Below, piece by piece: positions 34,907 to 43,156 of a stretch of 64,000 bases of DNA. This DNA comes from Nocardia sp. NBC_01503 (lineage in GTDB: Bacteria; Actinomycetota; Actinomycetes; Mycobacteriales; Mycobacteriaceae): assembly GCF_036327755.1 (NCBI RefSeq), contig NZ_CP109596.1, forward strand, positions 7,068,001 to 7,132,000. Direction: 5' to 3'. Each line of letters starts with the position of its first letter. The stretch's first letter is position 1. A program made the position numbers and the translations under genes. Under the pieces are notes generated by a model that saw nothing but the letters and a program-made list of their open reading frames with translations, was not told the DNA's origin and did no database searches.

Positions 34907-36358
34907 ATGCTCGAACCGCGCCAGGGCGGTCTCCGCCGACTGCGCCGCCGCAGCGATCCGGAGGCGACCGGACAACCGCCGACGCGTGCGGCGGTGCGCA
35001 ATGCCAAGATCGTCACACTGCCGGTGGCGTATGCGGCACGTCGTGCGGGCGGACTCGGCCGCCGCGCCATGGGACAGCCCAGACACGGGGTGGAGATCGA
35101 TATCCAGGCCCGCACCGCGCAGCATATGTTCGAGGTGCTGGGTGAGCTCAAGGGCTGCGCGACCAAATTCGGTCAGCTGCTCGCACTCTACGAACTCGCA
35201 CTGCCGCCGGAGTTGAGCGAGCCCTATCAGGAGGCGTTGAGCCGTCTACAGGACTCCGCCCCTGCCATGCTCCCCGGCGCGGTATCGGCCGCCATGGCCG
35301 CGAACATGGGGCCGGAGTGGCGGGATCGCTTCTGCGACTTCGCTCTTCGCTCCAGCGCGGCCGCCTCGGTGGGCCAGGTGCATCGCGCGGTTTGGGAGGA
35401 CGGGCGGGCGGTGGCGGTCAAGCTCATGTACCCCGGTGCACGCGAATCGGTGCACTCCGATCTCGAGCAGATTCGCCGGCTCGCGCCGCTGGCCACCGTC
35501 TTCGCGCCCGGCGCGGATACCCGTGCGCTCGCCGACGCCTTCGCCGACTGCATCAGCGATGAGCTCGACTACGCGAAAGAGGCCGAGACACAGCGCGTCT
35601 TCGCGGACGCCTACGCCGACGATCCGGATTTCGTGGTACCCGGCATCGTGCATCAGGAGGGTGATGTCCTGGTCAGCGAGTGGCTCGACGGGATCCCACT
35701 CTCCCGCGTCATCGCCACCGGCGCACAGCAGGAGAAGGATCGAATCGGGCTGCTGGTCCTGCGATTCGTGATGTCCAGCTCGGTGCGCACCGGAATGCTC
35801 TACTCCGATCCACATCCGGGGAACTTCCGGGTGCTGCGGGACGGCCGCCTGGGTGTGGTGGATTTCGGCGCCTGCCCGGTCTTTCCGATCGGGTTTCCCG
35901 AGGTCGTCGGTGATCTCGCCGATGCCGCCTTCAACGGCGTGGACGCCGATGTCGAGGCGGCGATGCGCAGGCACGGGTTCATTGCCGACGGCCAGGACTT
36001 CGATATCGTGGCGCTGCGCGCCGTGGCCGAACCCATTCGGGAAATGTTCTTCCCGCACACCATTCGGCTGACCAAACCCTGGCTGCGTGAGCAGGTCCGC
36101 CGGTCCATCGAACCCAGTCTGTCGAATGTGGGCAGGCAGCTCACCTCACCACCGGAGTACACGCCGATCGGGCGCGCCATTCTGGCGACCGTCGGCGTAT
36201 TGGCGCAGCTGGGTACCGAGGGGCCGCTGCGGGACGAATTATCCACGGCCCTACCGGGATTCGCGCAGGCGCTGGAGCGTTTCCATCTCGGGGAGGGTAT
36301 GCGGCGGCCGGTTACAGATGCATCAGATTCGGCCACACCTGTGACCATGAATTCTTGA
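34907..36358 (+). CDS. ABC1/AarF (UbiB-like) atypical kinase family protein
   Basis: 483 residues. Family motifs are KGCATKFGQLLALYE (KxGQ-type helix), SAAASVGQVHRAVWEDGRAVAVKLMYPG (Ala-rich loop and the conserved Lys), ELDYAKEAETQR, SDPHPGNFRVL and VVDFGACPVF (kinase-like DFG). UbiB/ABC1 proteins support lipid or quinone metabolism as ATPases. The actinobacterial members are uncharacterised to my knowledge. The last 47 bp overlap the end of the convergent glycosyltransferase gene. Confidence 0.9.
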   Translation: MLEPRQGGLRRLRRRSDPEATGQPPTRAAVRNAKIVTLPVAYAARRAGGLGRRAMGQPRHGVEIDIQARTAQHMFEVLGELKGCATKFGQLLALYELALPPELSEPYQEALSRLQDSAPAMLPGAVSAAMAANMGPEWRDRFCDFALRSSAAASVGQVHRAVWEDGRAVAVKLMYPGARESVHSDLEQIRRLAPLATVFAPGADTRALADAFADCISDELDYAKEAETQRVFADAYADDPDFVVPGIVHQEGDVLVSEWLDGIPLSRVIATGAQQEKDRIGLLVLRFVMSSSVRTGMLYSDPHPGNFRVLRDGRLGVVDFGACPVFPIGFPEVVGDLADAAFNGVDADVEAAMRRHGFIADGQDFDIVALRAVAEPIREMFFPHTIRLTKPWLREQVRRSIEPSLSNVGRQLTSPPEYTPIGRAILATVGVLAQLGTEGPLRDELSTALPGFAQALERFHLGEGMRRPVTDASDSATPVTMNS

Positions 36359-37865
36359 GCCCGCCGCATTTCCAGATCGTCACATCCTGGGTATTGCCGG
36401 AGAATCCGATCCGGGTATTCACCTTTCCGACCGGCTCCACATGCTCGAACTGATAGTGCATGAACGCTTCGTAGCCGCCGACGGCGATGACCGCGGTGGC
36501 ATCGTCCGGTGGGGCGCCGAAGTAACCGAAGCCACGGCTCGGGCTGTAGATGGGCGGGAGCTGATCGCGGCCGAGTTCATCCAATGCGCTTGCCTGCCAG
36601 TAGGTGTCGGCGAGGATGACGGCCTTGGATCGCTCCTGCGGGGTGAGCCCGTTGTAGACGCGCTCCACCTCATCGGTGAGTTCATGCCAGCCGAATGAGC
36701 CGTAGACGCCGATATTGATGGCGGCCTCGGCGTCATCGGCGGGTGGACGCACCTGATCGGCGGATCGCCACGGGGTCGAATACAGCACGAAAGCCGTTGC
36801 GCCCAAAGATAATACCGTGATGACGGCAATGAGCGCCCGCCGCAGATCGGTGCGCATGCGCTCGGCGGTGGCGACCACGCCGACCGCGCCCGCCGCGATC
36901 AGCACGCCGTACATTCCGGCCGCGTAGTAGATGCGCCCGCCGGTGATCAGGAAGGCCAGATACAGCAGGATGAGGGTCGCGCCGAGAAAACGGTAGGGCC
37001 GCAACGACTCCCATGCAAGCAGCACCCAGACACCCCACAGCAGCAGGAGTGCGCCCAGGAATCCGGCCAGGCTCACCGACATGGGCACGAACATGAGCCG
37101 CCCGCCCAGAATCCCCTGCTCGGCGCCGATGACGCGGCCCATCTCGAGCTGCGGCCAGTCGTGATGGGCCTGCCACAGCAACTCCGGCACCGTCGTGATC
37201 ACCACGATCGCGCCGCCGAGCCACAGCAGCGGGCGGCGCACCAGTTCGCGCGGTCCGAAGACCAGACTGCTCGCGGCGGCCGCCAGCCAGAAGAAGGGGA
37301 TCAGCCATTTGACCTGCATATCGACCGCGGTGACCAGTGCGGCGGCCAGCAGCAGCCAGTCATTGCGGGTGCGCACCCAGCGCACCACCAGCCAGGTGAT
37401 GATCACCCACAGCGCGGTATCGACCGCGTTCGTGGTGAGCATGGTGCCCTGGAGCAGCAGGAACGGGGAGGTGGCGTAGCCGAGGGCGGCGAGCACCTGC
37501 GCCCAGGCGTCACCACCGAATTCGCGGGCGAGCAAGGCGCACAGGATGATCGCGGTGACGGTCAATGCCACCGCGGGCAATCGCAGCACGAAGTACGAGC
37601 CGGGCGCGATGGTGTCCATCAGCCGCGCCAGCAGCGGCAATACCGGCCCCTGATCCGCGTACCCGAATGAGGGCCGTCGCCCCGCCGCCAGGAAGTACAG
37701 CTCGTCGCCGAAGTAGCCGTACCGGGTCGCGGAGAGCAGCAACACCACAGCAGCCGAGAGGGCGACCGCCGCGACGGCCTTCCACGCCACCGCCGGGCGA
37801 TCCGGTTCCGCCCGGTGCCGCCCGGGAGAACTCGACTGGGCCGAACCATCCACCACATCGGTCAA
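36312..37865 (-). CDS. Family-39 glycosyltransferase (ArnT/PMT-like), copy 1
   Basis: About 517 residues with 10-12 transmembrane helices. The first extracytoplasmic loop has the acidic pair in YFGDELYFLAAG, followed by YADQGP, then VDTALWVIITWLVVRWVRTR. Such GT-C enzymes move sugars from polyprenyl-phosphate carriers to envelope acceptors. TTG 37865 is preferred because AGGAG lies 7-8 nt upstream; GTG 37955 is an alternative. It is a close paralogue of the gene at 41633-43156, and both end with a similar IYSPxRGFGYFG domain. Confidence 0.85.
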   Translation of the reverse strand: MTDVVDGSAQSSSPGRHRAEPDRPAVAWKAVAAVALSAAVVLLLSATRYGYFGDELYFLAAGRRPSFGYADQGPVLPLLARLMDTIAPGSYFVLRLPAVALTVTAIILCALLAREFGGDAWAQVLAALGYATSPFLLLQGTMLTTNAVDTALWVIITWLVVRWVRTRNDWLLLAAALVTAVDMQVKWLIPFFWLAAAASSLVFGPRELVRRPLLWLGGAIVVITTVPELLWQAHHDWPQLEMGRVIGAEQGILGGRLMFVPMSVSLAGFLGALLLLWGVWVLLAWESLRPYRFLGATLILLYLAFLITGGRIYYAAGMYGVLIAAGAVGVVATAERMRTDLRRALIAVITVLSLGATAFVLYSTPWRSADQVRPPADDAEAAINIGVYGSFGWHELTDEVERVYNGLTPQERSKAVILADTYWQASALDELGRDQLPPIYSPSRGFGYFGAPPDDATAVIAVGGYEAFMHYQFEHVEPVGKVNTRIGFSGNTQDVTIWKCGGLKNSWSQVWPNLMHL

Positions 37866-38007
37866 CAGCGTGCTCCTGCCCGGCGAGGTACTGCGCGGCC
37901 TGATCAATACGGTCGCCAGCAAATCTACAGCTTCGCCGTCGGCCCGTCCGCACACGAAACACCGAGCGCCCGCCGATCACCCCCGCGGCCCGCGCTGAGC
38001 CGCTCCC

Positions 38008-39104: not shown

Positions 39105-39692
39105 ATGACAGCGTCACCCCGCGAAGAGCCGATCCCGGAGTGGTTCCGGCCGCCGCGAGGTGGATGGCGAGCCGAGGATCTCGATCGCCTGCCTCCCGAA
39201 GCACCCCGACACCTCGAGCTGCTGCACGGAGACCTGATCGTGAACGCTGCCCAGCGGTCCTTCCACGCCCACGCTGTTCGCACCCTCCACTCGGCGTTGG
39301 AGTCGCAGCTCCCACCGGGCTGCCATGCCGACAGCGAGATGAGCGTGCGCATCGACACCAGAAACCGACCCGAACCAGACATCCTGCTCGTGACATCCCC
39401 GCCCGACCCCGACCGGACCTACTACGACCCGTGGGAAGTAGTCCTCGTGGGTGAGGTGATCTCGGAGGAGTCCGAGGAGCGCGACCGCGAGATCAAGCCC
39501 CTGAAGTACGCCCAGGCGGGCATCCGGCACTTCTGGATCATCGACCAGGACAAGGGTTTTCGGCCGACGGTCACCACCTTCGCCCTCGATCGAGCGACCG
39601 GCTCGTACGTCAGGACCGGCGAGTACCGCGACCGGCTCACAGTCAGCGAGCCCTACCCGCTCGACATCGACTTCGCCGCCTTCGACCGCTGA
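39105..39692 (+). CDS. Uma2 family endonuclease-fold protein
   Basis: 195 residues with a PD-(D/E)xK-like core: PEPDILLV (Asp), VLVGEVISEES (Glu) and EIKPLKYAQAGIRHFWIID (Lys and the conserved end). The Uma2/DUF820 family is abundant in cyanobacteria and actinomycetes. Nuclease activity is predicted from fold only, and no toxin-antitoxin partner is adjacent. ATG 39105 lies 59 bp after the NUDIX stop, so cotranscription is possible. A strong terminator follows. Confidence 0.88.
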   Translation: MTASPREEPIPEWFRPPRGGWRAEDLDRLPPEAPRHLELLHGDLIVNAAQRSFHAHAVRTLHSALESQLPPGCHADSEMSVRIDTRNRPEPDILLVTSPPDPDRTYYDPWEVVLVGEVISEESEERDREIKPLKYAQAGIRHFWIIDQDKGFRPTVTTFALDRATGSYVRTGEYRDRLTVSEPYPLDIDFAAFDR

Positions 39693-39715
39693 GTCGAGCT
39701 GCCCCGGAAACGAGG

Positions 39716-39753
39716 ACGGCCCATTTCGATCCCGCGCGATCGAAATGGGCCGT
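39716..39753. terminator. Strong bidirectional terminator
   Basis: Perfect 16-bp stem (39716-39731 with 39738-39753), 6-nt loop, followed by a T-rich stretch (GTTTGCGTTT) on the plus strand. It separates the Uma2 gene from the minus-strand micro-ORF, ending 22 bp from its stop. Confidence 0.85.
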
Positions 39754-39774
39754 TTGCGTTTCCGCGTCTTGCAG

Positions 39775-39858
39775 TTACTGGCCGGTGCTACCGGTGAACA
39801 GGCCCTGGAGGGTCTTGATCAGTACCTGAGACAGGAAATCCGAGGCGGATCCGGACAC
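39775..39858 (-). CDS. 27-residue amphipathic micro-protein
   Basis: A GTG-started ORF with GAGGAG exactly 6 nt upstream (39865-39870) and a terminator 22 bp past its stop. The peptide begins MSGSASDFLSQ, continues VLIKTLQGLF and ends TGSTGQ. The middle 15 residues would form an amphipathic helix with Phe, Leu, Val and Ile on one face. There is no signal peptide. I do not recognise a family; size and pattern resemble small membrane-active peptides. The RBS, the terminator and the dyad-rich upstream region argue that it is real. Confidence 0.6.
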   Translation of the reverse strand: MSGSASDFLSQVLIKTLQGLFTGSTGQ

Positions 39859-39894
39859 GCGCTACTCCTCATCTATGAAATGACATGTCGACTT

Positions 39895-39963
39895 GTGAAT
39901 CATGCACGATTCACTTTATTGGGGAGGGATTTTCGGGGGGAAAATCCCAGCCCGTCGACGGGC
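39895..39963. promoter_or_regulatory. Cluster of palindromes upstream of the micro-ORF
   Basis: Three dyads in 69 bp: GTGAATC-N6-GATTCAC (39895-39914), a 9-bp stem with a G5 loop (39926-39948), and the perfect 14-bp palindrome GCCCGTCGACGGGC (39950-39963). A weaker GGAAC-N11-GTTCC follows just beyond. The sequence is more AT-rich than its surroundings, and no ORF on either strand is convincing here. It probably holds the promoter and operators of the micro-ORF. Confidence 0.5.
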
Positions 39964-40032
39964 GGAACTAGTAGAACTTGTTCCAACTGCGGTTATGCGA
40001 GATCGACAGAAAAGTGATGTACGTCATAACGT

Positions 40033-40713
40033 CTAGCCGGAGGAGGCTGACGAACCGGCCCAGGCGGCGAAGGCGCCCGGATTGCGGGTTTGGAGCAGGA
40101 CGCGGCCGGGGCCGACGAAGTCGAAGACGAAGCCTTCGCCGGATTTGAGCGATTGCAGGGAACGGCCGGAGACGGCGCGGCGGATGGTGAAGTTCATCGC
40201 CAGGTCGTAGGCGACGACGTGGCCGGTGTCGATGGTGACCGGTTCGCCGGGGGCCAGGTCGATGACGTCGATGGCCCCGAAGACGCCGAGCACCACCTCA
40301 CCGTCACCGTGGGCGCGCAGGCCGAAACCACCCTCACCGCCGAAGAGATTCGCCAGGCCACCCCATTTGGCCTCGACGGTCACCCCGTGCGAGTTCGCGA
40401 TCCAGCCGCCGCGGCTGATGAAGTACGGCCGATCCTGGGTAATGGTCAGCGCCAACATATCTCCGGGCAGCGCGGGTGCCACATCGACCCAGCCGCCGGC
40501 GGGCGGCGCGGTGAAGGTGGAGACGAAGAAGGATTCGCCCGCGAGCACCGAACGCTTGAGCCCGGCGATGATGCCGCCCTCGGCCTTGGCTGCCAAGGTG
40601 ACTCCGGCGGAGTGCGCCACCATGGCACCACTCTCGACCCGCATGGGCTCACCGCCCGCGAGGAAGCAGCGCGCAATGGTCGACGACGGTTGATGCCGCA
40701 GTTGAACCTTCAT
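40033..40713 (-). CDS. AIM24 family protein
   Basis: 226 residues of the AIM24/TIGR00266 family, a double-barrel beta fold. Typical segments are MKVQLRHQPSSTIARCFLAGGEPMRVESGAMV (split in mid-run by the first strand pair), FFVSTFTAPPAGGWVDVAPA and LAPGEPVTIDTGHVVAYD. Function is unknown in bacteria; the yeast relative affects inner-membrane structure. ATG 40713 gives the family start. It is upstream of the micro-ORF on the same strand, with 174 bp between them. Confidence 0.88.
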   Translation of the reverse strand: MKVQLRHQPSSTIARCFLAGGEPMRVESGAMVAHSAGVTLAAKAEGGIIAGLKRSVLAGESFFVSTFTAPPAGGWVDVAPALPGDMLALTITQDRPYFISRGGWIANSHGVTVEAKWGGLANLFGGEGGFGLRAHGDGEVVLGVFGAIDVIDLAPGEPVTIDTGHVVAYDLAMNFTIRRAVSGRSLQSLKSGEGFVFDFVGPGRVLLQTRNPGAFAAWAGSSASSG

Positions 40714-40888
40714 GGGCGCGAACGTTAGCAGCGAGAACCCGGCGAATGGGAGTGATATCGGCGCGTCCGCTCGGCCCGGTCCGGTCAACCCGCTCCGCGC
40801 GCGGTCGAGAGATGGAATGATGCCGACCGCATAGTTTGATCAATATGCGATCCAGAGCGCAATCCTCGAATGAAGGAGACCCCCGCCG

Positions 40889-41632: not shown

Positions 41633-43156
41633 TCACCCCAGGCGCAACATATTCGGCCACTCGCGCGACCACGGTGCGCGCGGGTGGTCACAGCGCCACA
41701 GCGTGATATCCCGGGTGACACCCGGAATGCCCAGTCGCGCATCGGCTCTACCCACGGCGGTGACCTCGGCGCAGTGCTCGCGGGGTTCGCTGCCGTCACC
41801 ACCGACCCAGATCACGGTGGTGGCGGCATCCGGCGGCGTGCCGAAGTAGCCGAAGCCACGGTTGGGGCTGTAGATCGGCGGCAGGCCGTGTTCGGCGCGA
41901 TCGAGATCCAATGCGCTTGCCTGCCAATAGGAGTCGGTGATCACCACGGCGTTCGCACGCTCGGCGGCGGGCAGCGCCAGATACGCCTGCTCGGTGGCCT
42001 GCGCCAGATCTTCCCACCCGAACCGCCCGTACACGCTGAGCTGCTGCCACGCGGCGCTCTCCGATGCGGCGGGTCGCACCTCGGACTCCGGCTGCAACGG
42101 CAGCGCCGCGGCCACCAATACCACCGAGACCAGTACGAGCACACCGCCCACCCAGCGCCGCCACCCCTGCGCCTTGCGGGTGGCGAATACCGCACCGGCC
42201 GCCATCACCGCGCCGTAGCAGCCGACCACGTAATACGCTCGGCCATCGGTGATTACGAACGCGATGGTCAGCAGGACCGGAACCAATCCGAGGAACCGGT
42301 AGGGCCGAAGCTGCGGCATACGCAGCAACGCCCAGACACCACCCAGCAGCAGGATCGTGCCGATCACCCCGGCCGAGGCCAGCGCCATCGGCACGAACAT
42401 GAGCCGTCCGCCGATGCTGTCCTGTTCGGCCGCCACCTGAGCGCCCATCCCGAGCTGCGGCCAGCCGTGCCGGGCCTGCCAGATCAGGGTGGGCAGCATG
42501 GTGACGAAAACCCCTGCGGCACCGGCCCATAGCGCGGGACGGCGCAGCATTTCACGCGGACCGTAACAGAGCACGCCGATGGCGATGGCCGCCCACAGGA
42601 ACGGCACCAGCCACTTCACCTGCAGATCGAGCGCGGTCACCGCGGCCGCCCACAGCAGCAGCGCGTCCCGCCGCGTGCGCACCCACCGAATGACCAGCCA
42701 GCTGATCAGCACCCACAGCGCGGTGTCGATCGAGTTCGTGGACAACTGTATTCCCTGCACCAGCAGGAACGGCGAGGTCGCGTAGGCGATCGCGGTGAGT
42801 ACCTGCGCGGCGCGCGAACCGCCGAACTCCCGGGCGATGAGCGCGCTGAGCACCATGGCGGCCACGGTCACCAGCACCGACGGAAGTCGCAGCGCCACCA
42901 TCGATCCCGGTGCGAGCAGATCCATGAACCAGGCGATGGCGGGGACCAGCGGCCCCTGATCGGCGTAGCCGACCGAGAGCCGGTGCCCCGCCGAGACGAA
43001 GTACAGTTCGTCGCCGAAGAATCCGTACTGGCCGAGCGTGGCCAGTAACGCGATCGCACCGACCGCCGCGATGCCCAGCACCCAGCCGAGCGCGAACGGC
43101 GGTAGCTCACGCGGTGTTTCCTGCCGCACGGCCGCGGTATCGAACGTTCGTGTCAC
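41633..43156 (-). CDS. Family-39 glycosyltransferase (ArnT/PMT-like), copy 2
   Basis: 507 residues, polytopic, with the acidic pair in YGFFGDELYFVSAGHR, then YADQGPLVPAIAWFMDLLAPGS and IDTALWVLISWLVIRWVRTR. It is clearly paralogous to the gene at 36312-37865 along its whole length, including the C-terminal YWQASALDLD and IYSPNRGFGYFG segments. Its start overlaps the stop of the upstream TetR gene by 4 bp, so the pair forms an operon. Confidence 0.88.
   Translation of the reverse strand: MTRTFDTAAVRQETPRELPPFALGWVLGIAAVGAIALLATLGQYGFFGDELYFVSAGHRLSVGYADQGPLVPAIAWFMDLLAPGSMVALRLPSVLVTVAAMVLSALIAREFGGSRAAQVLTAIAYATSPFLLVQGIQLSTNSIDTALWVLISWLVIRWVRTRRDALLLWAAAVTALDLQVKWLVPFLWAAIAIGVLCYGPREMLRRPALWAGAAGVFVTMLPTLIWQARHGWPQLGMGAQVAAEQDSIGGRLMFVPMALASAGVIGTILLLGGVWALLRMPQLRPYRFLGLVPVLLTIAFVITDGRAYYVVGCYGAVMAAGAVFATRKAQGWRRWVGGVLVLVSVVLVAAALPLQPESEVRPAASESAAWQQLSVYGRFGWEDLAQATEQAYLALPAAERANAVVITDSYWQASALDLDRAEHGLPPIYSPNRGFGYFGTPPDAATTVIWVGGDGSEPREHCAEVTAVGRADARLGIPGVTRDITLWRCDHPRAPWSREWPNMLRLG

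Follow-up and report, generated by a model that had tools for sequence, protein, structure and literature searches.

Predicted-helical micropeptides of Nocardia with a shared upstream inverted repeat and, in one subgroup, a KstR-type operator

A 64,000-nucleotide (nt) stretch of Nocardia sp. NBC_01503 (contig NZ_CP109596.1, positions 7,068,001 to 7,132,000; hereafter the window) carries on its minus strand a 27-codon open reading frame (ORF) with a GTG start, which a first-pass annotation had picked out as a gene for a small amphipathic peptide. Judged by conservation and codon substitution, this frame, 39858..39775 (-), is a real, evolutionarily conserved gene, and on sequence comparison the family to which it belongs, family A, is one of a set of predicted-helical peptides of 25–47 amino acids (aa) encoded at unrelated loci. 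The strongest new facts are a cis-element lying almost exclusively in front of such genes, an inverted repeat that we refer to as the palindrome, and a KstR operator further upstream in the subgroup of the window gene; the conserved palindrome, the paralogues and the operator are all additions to the first-pass annotation. As a tentative explanation, preferred here although we would not call it probable, the gene may encode a helical envelope peptide of very small size, similar in kind to PorA/PorH of corynebacteria, co-regulated through the palindrome and repressed by KstR in this lineage.

A conserved small gene

With GTG read as Met, the frame translates as VSGSASDFLSQVLIKTLQGLFTGSTGQ followed by a stop. 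As read from the sequence, it forms part of a compact cassette of about 330 bp comprising a KstR box, a cgAAA box, the palindrome, a ribosome-binding site (RBS), the ORF and a 3′ hairpin (Table 1). The GTG ORF and its GAGGAG at a 6-nt spacing, both described in the first-pass annotation, were confirmed in the sequence. Family A relatives in short frames were found in 30 of 98 Nocardia genomes, three of the 33 genomes that matched in this search having been dropped as chance matches (E above 1, long frames). A GAGG/GGAG-type RBS precedes the start in all 30 loci (by eye), and M1, G3, S4 and L20 are invariant among 26 aligned sequences. A degenerate protein-shaped coding pattern, scanned against the genome_contigs collection (84,980 species, each represented by one genome), matched 31 stretches, every one titled Nocardia, including N. 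seriolae, N. cyriacigeorgica, N. niigatensis, N. jejuensis and N. salmonicida.

The codon-substitution check suggested with the original call revealed purifying selection. Fifteen disjoint close pairs hold 35 synonymous changes at 248 sites and 28 non-synonymous changes at 652 sites, giving a ratio of non-synonymous to synonymous change per site (pN/pS) of 0.30 (Fisher p 1.3e-6). A set of 248 overlapping pairs gave 0.36 for the coding frame, compared with 0.91 and 2.58 when that strand was read in its other two frames. Since the same ORF and RBS recur in 30 relatives' loci and the low pN/pS is specific to the frame, the frame lies far beyond chance, in agreement with the initial view that it is a real small gene.

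We also looked at 11 Nocardia genomes picked because the family A search had no match there. The region downstream of AIM24, the upstream neighbour of the window gene, has neither the palindrome nor a KstR-type box within 400 nt in any of the 11; at three of these empty sites (L227, L228 and L229) the longest convergent open frame ends 7–44 nt from AIM24, and at L234 it overlaps AIM24. This fits a cassette that is present or absent as one unit. Family- and order-wide profile searches found no convincing member outside Nocardia except in a second genus of the family (g27), many weak matches that were fragments inside long frames being disregarded, and tblastn with one A-type query found no match in plasmid and phage collections.

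Paralogues, predicted structure and a shared inverted repeat

The genome of the window has two further micropeptide genes, B and C. Family B is present in 8 and family C in 7 of 59 Nocardia genomes, one match having been dropped from the former count and three weak matches, overlapping A genes out of frame, from the latter. Each of the families A, B and C has its own conserved chromosomal neighbourhood, as judged from gene calls by a crude caller of our own, with names assigned by eye except for AIM24, Uma2 and NUDIX. For family A, the gene called directly upstream is AIM24 at 9 of 12 group-1 loci and a proteasomal-ATPase-like gene at 6 of the 8 remaining loci. Family B is flanked by an amidohydrolase-like gene upstream (8/8) and a trmD-like gene downstream (7/8), and family C has TetR-like and hydrolase-like genes downstream in 7/7 loci. 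Paralogue C is conserved together with its 5′ region, which contains a short inverted repeat, GTCAGTG..CACTGAC (by eye), and has no copy of the shared palindrome.

In the second genus, 7 of 18 genomes contain a match to a related type, MGSAATFLADVLVAVITQLIETGSSSGS, and loci L213-L219 carry the related peptides MGSAATFLADVLVAVITQLIETGSSSGS and MGSIASLLTDVLVGVILELISSGSAQ; the palindrome is absent by eye from the upstream regions L040-L042 and L217-L219 of that genus. In one Nocardia genome (G006; L203 1560-2224) three micropeptide ORFs of 40, 38 and 47 aa stand in tandem, with the palindrome at the first and third, a layout that recalls the porH-porA arrangement. No Pfam or NCBIfam family reached its cut-off with A, B, C or R (PorA/PorH models were not confirmed in those libraries), and a PDB profile search gave no usable match.

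Peptides of families A–C are 25–33 aa long, with ends rich in Gly, Ser and Thr, and the net charge across the set ranges from -2 to +1. An AlphaFold2 model of a 33-aa orthologue, built with 20 aligned sequences, consists of one helix spanning residues 3-26, with a mean predicted local distance difference test (pLDDT) score of 76.7. The amphipathic middle noted at first held in part: the window peptide reaches a helical moment of 0.41 in its best 15-mer, but shuffling the 18-residue core gives equal amphipathicity in 10% of cases. Best-15-mer moments are 0.38-0.51 for A, C and the related type, and 0.27 and 0.36 for family B, which is hydrophobic rather than amphipathic. By eye, no signal-peptide-like N terminus was recognised in families A–C, in keeping with the first-pass annotation. 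The model is consistent with a helical, membrane-seeking peptide, and a membrane-active peptide, as first suggested, is plausible on sequence. The companion suggestion of a quorum-type peptide found no specific support, recurrent processing, export or receptor genes not being recognised among the nearest neighbours.

Families A and B have TGAAT-N4-CATGCTTCA, or a close variant, ending 33–52 nt before the start codon. In the 8.5-Mb genome of the window, exact matches to the pattern TGAAYNNNNCATGMTTCA number just two, one at A and one at B; four one-mismatch sites lie elsewhere in that genome, and the two that were read (L123 and L126) showed no obvious peptide gene. Across 96 Nocardia genomes the exact pattern TGAATNNNNCATGCTTCA occurs at 30 sites in 26 genomes, against none for the reversed control pattern. 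As judged by eye, an RBS and a peptide gene of this class come after 29 of them (two being the looser forms of G006). The lone exact site not preceding such a gene is L185 (G095).

TGAA pairs with TTCA at each of the 48 distinct sites, whereas position 4/13, further in, does not pair at 46 of them. In the predicted fold of the window leader the palindrome is paired (7 bp) and the RBS and start codon lie inside a stem (z -1.55). Nineteen leader entries were folded; L014, with a wrong start, was excluded, and the 18 usable leaders (the window and other members) showed no common structure, with z from -1.7 to +1.1 relative to simple base shuffles. Because the inner position is unpaired, the leader folds are unremarkable and no structure is shared, the palindrome is probably an operator acting at the DNA level; it is possibly an RNA hairpin, which is the weaker reading. 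Some translational control is conceivable, since the window leader fold pairs the RBS and start codon.

The KstR-type operator and the surroundings of the cassette

The published KstR consensus is a 14-bp operator, TnnAACnnGTTnnA (PMC1995591). Of 19 upstream regions in subgroup A1, which includes the window gene, 14 have this operator 126–140 nt ahead of the start codon, compared with 0 of 44 from A2, A3, B and C; members of this tally needed an RBS, 24–35 codons and 320 nt of upstream DNA, and contig-edge copies were left out. With two mismatches allowed, the window's own box, TGGAACAAGTTCTA, has two matches in the 64 kb, one being the box itself and the other a site with two mismatches, against an expectation of 0.03.

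Sixteen palindromic sites fit the pattern TRGAACNNGTTCYA in the genome of the window, and none fits its reversed control. One of the 16 adjoins the kstR orthologue (NF033703 equivalog, 330.6 bits against a cut-off of 280). Of the 15 boxes elsewhere in the genome, 14 were inspected, the one at kstR among them. MlaE-like permease genes stand beside two: one such gene was scanned (TIGR00056 as best match, under its cut-off), the other named by eye. Most of the remaining boxes have P450, acyl-CoA or steroid-type enzymes next to them (by eye), a few neighbours not being identified. As no other same-strand gene lies between the box and the peptide gene, KstR control of the window peptide is the natural reading of this arrangement. 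No micropeptide in a KstR regulon was found among the literature matches listed. The link would tie the peptide to sterol use and offers a growth condition in which to seek it.

On the 3′ side, the perfect 16-bp repeat reported by the first-pass annotation is present, with arms at 39716-39731 and 39738-39753 and a 6-nt loop; its distance from the stop is one nucleotide less than the 22 bp stated. A 101-nt stretch containing the hairpin folds at -50.1 kcal/mol (z -5.25), and in most family A relatives the stop is likewise followed by a hairpin, with stem sequences that vary between species (by eye). Because it lacks a real U-tract and is placed between convergent genes, a terminator role for this strong hairpin is likely rather than proven. 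It lies directly beyond the end of the convergent Uma2 gene and may serve both genes, or neither. A simple terminator scan did not list the hairpin, its sole terminator-like site being the upstream palindrome read on the plus strand; a sigma-70-type promoter scan found none in 39600-40100, and nothing came from a tRNA scan or an Rfam scan of the window at gathering thresholds.

The Uma2 gene sits between the peptide cassette and a NUDIX gene in the window. In several relatives' loci a NUDIX-cluster gene call directly follows the peptide, and the Uma2 gene is perhaps an insertion. Two related membrane glycosyltransferase-like genes (same cluster, function by eye), at 36312-37955 and 41633-43156 (-), flank the region.

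Table 1 Features of the micropeptide cassette, its neighbours and the two paralogues in the same genome
Feature	Position	Strand	Description
Micropeptide gene, family A	39775..39858	(-)	GTG start, 27 aa, MSGSASDFLSQVLIKTLQGLFTGSTGQ, TAA stop
RBS GAGGAG	39865..39870	(-)	6 nt from start codon
Perfect 16-bp inverted repeat, terminator-like hairpin	39716..39753	(-)	21 nt past stop, without U-tract, between convergent genes
18-bp inverted repeat TGAATCGTGCATGATTCA (palindrome)	39896..39913	(-)	Shared with paralogue B; 20 bp with flanks, 39895-39914
cgAAA box, candidate promoter box	39930..39936	(-)	About 20 nt upstream of the inverted repeat; logo of 51 sites
KstR-type operator TGGAACAAGTTCTA	39972..39985	(-)	127 nt upstream of start codon
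Upstream neighbour, AIM24-family protein (start uncertain)	40033..40788	(-)	Pfam PF01987 on L148 orthologue
Convergent Uma2-domain gene (start inferred), outside cassette	39108..39692	(+)	Family assignment by domain scan
Paralogue B	C1:222956-223033	(-)	LGSVESFVTAVLAGLVVKLLTGSIGH, TTG start, RBS, same upstream palindrome; outside window
Paralogue C	C1:3030405-3030485	(+)	MTGIISDVLVQTILKLIATGSASGSAK; outside window

Candidate roles and comparison with known small peptides

In the explanation that we favour, a sequence-specific factor would act through the palindrome to co-regulate the window gene with at least one unlinked paralogue, and KstR in this lineage would also keep the micropeptide gene repressed for as long as sterol or lipid catabolism is off. 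The peptide would form a single helix, some 20 residues long, with a tail rich in Gly, Ser and Thr, reach the cell envelope without a signal peptide, perhaps be acylated on its Ser/Gly-rich ends, and alter permeability or lipid traffic. Transcription, regulator binding, envelope location and any pore or acylation are thus steps that we infer. A bolder version, which we consider quite unlikely, is a Nocardia micropeptide regulon in which a factor reading TGAAT-N4-CATGCTTCA would control unlinked genes for helical peptides of 25–47 aa that are the smallest mycomembrane channels or lipid handlers, the window copy having joined the KstR regulon; if it were true, sterol use would remodel the envelope.

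Several points weigh against the envelope-peptide explanation. It draws on sequence and structure prediction rather than on transcript, proteomic or localisation data. Family A is limited in its spread, less than a third of the Nocardia genomes searched having a member, and its amphipathicity is modest; the palindrome is missing in family C. The KstR box is 58 nt further upstream than the palindrome and does not cover an identified promoter. It is also missing from 5 of 19 A1 members, among them L095 (N. acidivorans), whose peptide is identical to that of the window, and from A2, A3, B and C, so KstR control cannot be the ancestral function. Nocardia pores that have been described are MspA-type (PMC9233653, PMC4827864). 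The porA and porH genes lie between groEL2 and ppk2 (PMC3792995), and the window locus is elsewhere, with AIM24 and Uma2/NUDIX as neighbours. In Corynebacterium glutamicum, PorH still assembled at the surface after the mycoloylated serines of PorH or PorA had been changed (PMC12632848), so acylation need not matter. Finally, at 27 aa the window peptide is shorter than PorACur, of 37 aa.

After a PorA-like role we rank an accessory subunit, a secreted surface-active peptide and a toxin module, in that order. Small accessory subunits are exemplified by AcrZ- and KdpF-type peptides, and the window peptide could similarly bind and tune a larger inner-membrane protein such as a transporter. A hydrophobic helix with short polar ends, encoded at conserved loci, would suit such a role, and in 6 of 12 group-1 loci (L148-L155) ABC importer-like ATP-binding and permease genes (by eye) lie 2–5 kb upstream, among the five nearest upstream genes. 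The KstR link, too, would suit a steroid-import partner, given the MlaE-like permease genes beside two KstR boxes. However, the families A, B and C have no immediate neighbour in common, and several divergent paralogues per genome would require several partners; we regard this role as unlikely.

Phenol-soluble modulins of staphylococci are leaderless single helices of similar size, and the peptide might, like them, be secreted or surface-active, serving as a surfactant, antimicrobial or signal. Its small size, predicted helix, strong RBS and lack of a signal peptide would agree with this, as would the multiple family members per genome. The net charge of -2 to +1, the Gly/Ser tail and the barely amphipathic family B would not; no recurrent exporter gene was recognised nearby, and no paper linking Nocardia with such peptides was among the matches listed. 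The modulins come from another phylum, and the likeness is one of description, not of sequence comparison. We place this alternative a little below the accessory subunit.

Improbable in our judgement is a toxin that acts on the membrane as part of a type I toxin-antitoxin or stress module and is restrained by antisense RNA or leader structure. Type I toxins such as TisB have a short hydrophobic helix, and the micropeptide genes have paralogues, their own control region and a hairpin; the window leader, with palindrome, RBS and start codon all paired, could provide the restraint. That fold is unremarkable, however, the 18 leaders share no structure, and positions 4/13 of the palindrome pair in only 2 of 48 sites. 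The loci are chromosomal, conserved and syntenic, with no antitoxin RNA known for them, and the plasmid and phage search with one A-type query gave no match. That there is no peptide gene at all, and that the frame arose by chance next to a regulatory RNA or a terminator, would account for the conservation of the upstream element and 3′ hairpin themselves but is already contradicted by frame-specific purifying selection, a conserved start and RBS and paralogues alike as protein, and has a negligible probability.

In mycolic-acid bacteria the passage of proteins and nutrients through the outer membrane is poorly known, and presequence-free micropeptides are one of its puzzles. A conserved set of several members with its own cis-element offers a tractable entry, as one motif marks such genes at all exact sites but one in the genomes scanned. 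No description of these Nocardia peptides was found among the literature matches listed, which were open-access papers, and an earlier description is possible.

The nearest parallel to the proposed envelope peptide is the corynebacterial group of PorA/PorH, PorACj and PorACur (TC 1.B.34, 1.B.59), with which the Nocardia set shares small genes, by eye without a presequence, and predicted-helical peptides in mycolic-acid bacteria. PorACj, of 40 aa, is encoded by a stand-alone gene without a presequence and with its own AGGAG and stem-loop (PMC3792995, PMC5944148); PorACur likewise lacks a presequence and is termed the smallest channel former (PMC5944148). PorA has 45 and PorH 57 aa, and the mycoloyltransferase Cmt1 is required for PorH assembly (PMC12632848). 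The residues that carry O-mycoloyl groups are chiefly Ser among Ser/Gly/Ala, and both Nocardia and Rhodococcus are said to have Cmt1 orthologues (PMC11066868). Sequence similarity within the corynebacterial group is itself very low (PMC4827864, PMC5944148, PMC3792995). The corynebacterial peptides differ in being 37–57 aa long, against 25–33 aa in families A–C (though the tandem ORFs of G006 encode 38, 40 and 47 aa), and in that their channel activity and O-mycoloylation have been demonstrated, where the present case is built from sequence and prediction. The second parallel is the KstR regulon of mycobacteria, with the same 14-bp operator and, here, boxes beside kstR and steroid- or lipid-type enzymes (by eye), the difference being that in front of the micropeptide genes the box is confined to subgroup A1. 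Because the window peptide is smaller, lies at another locus and matches no family model at cut-off, and because the pores described for Nocardia are MspA-type, we describe it as like PorA, not as a PorA; by analogy with this group, it may nonetheless work as PorA does.
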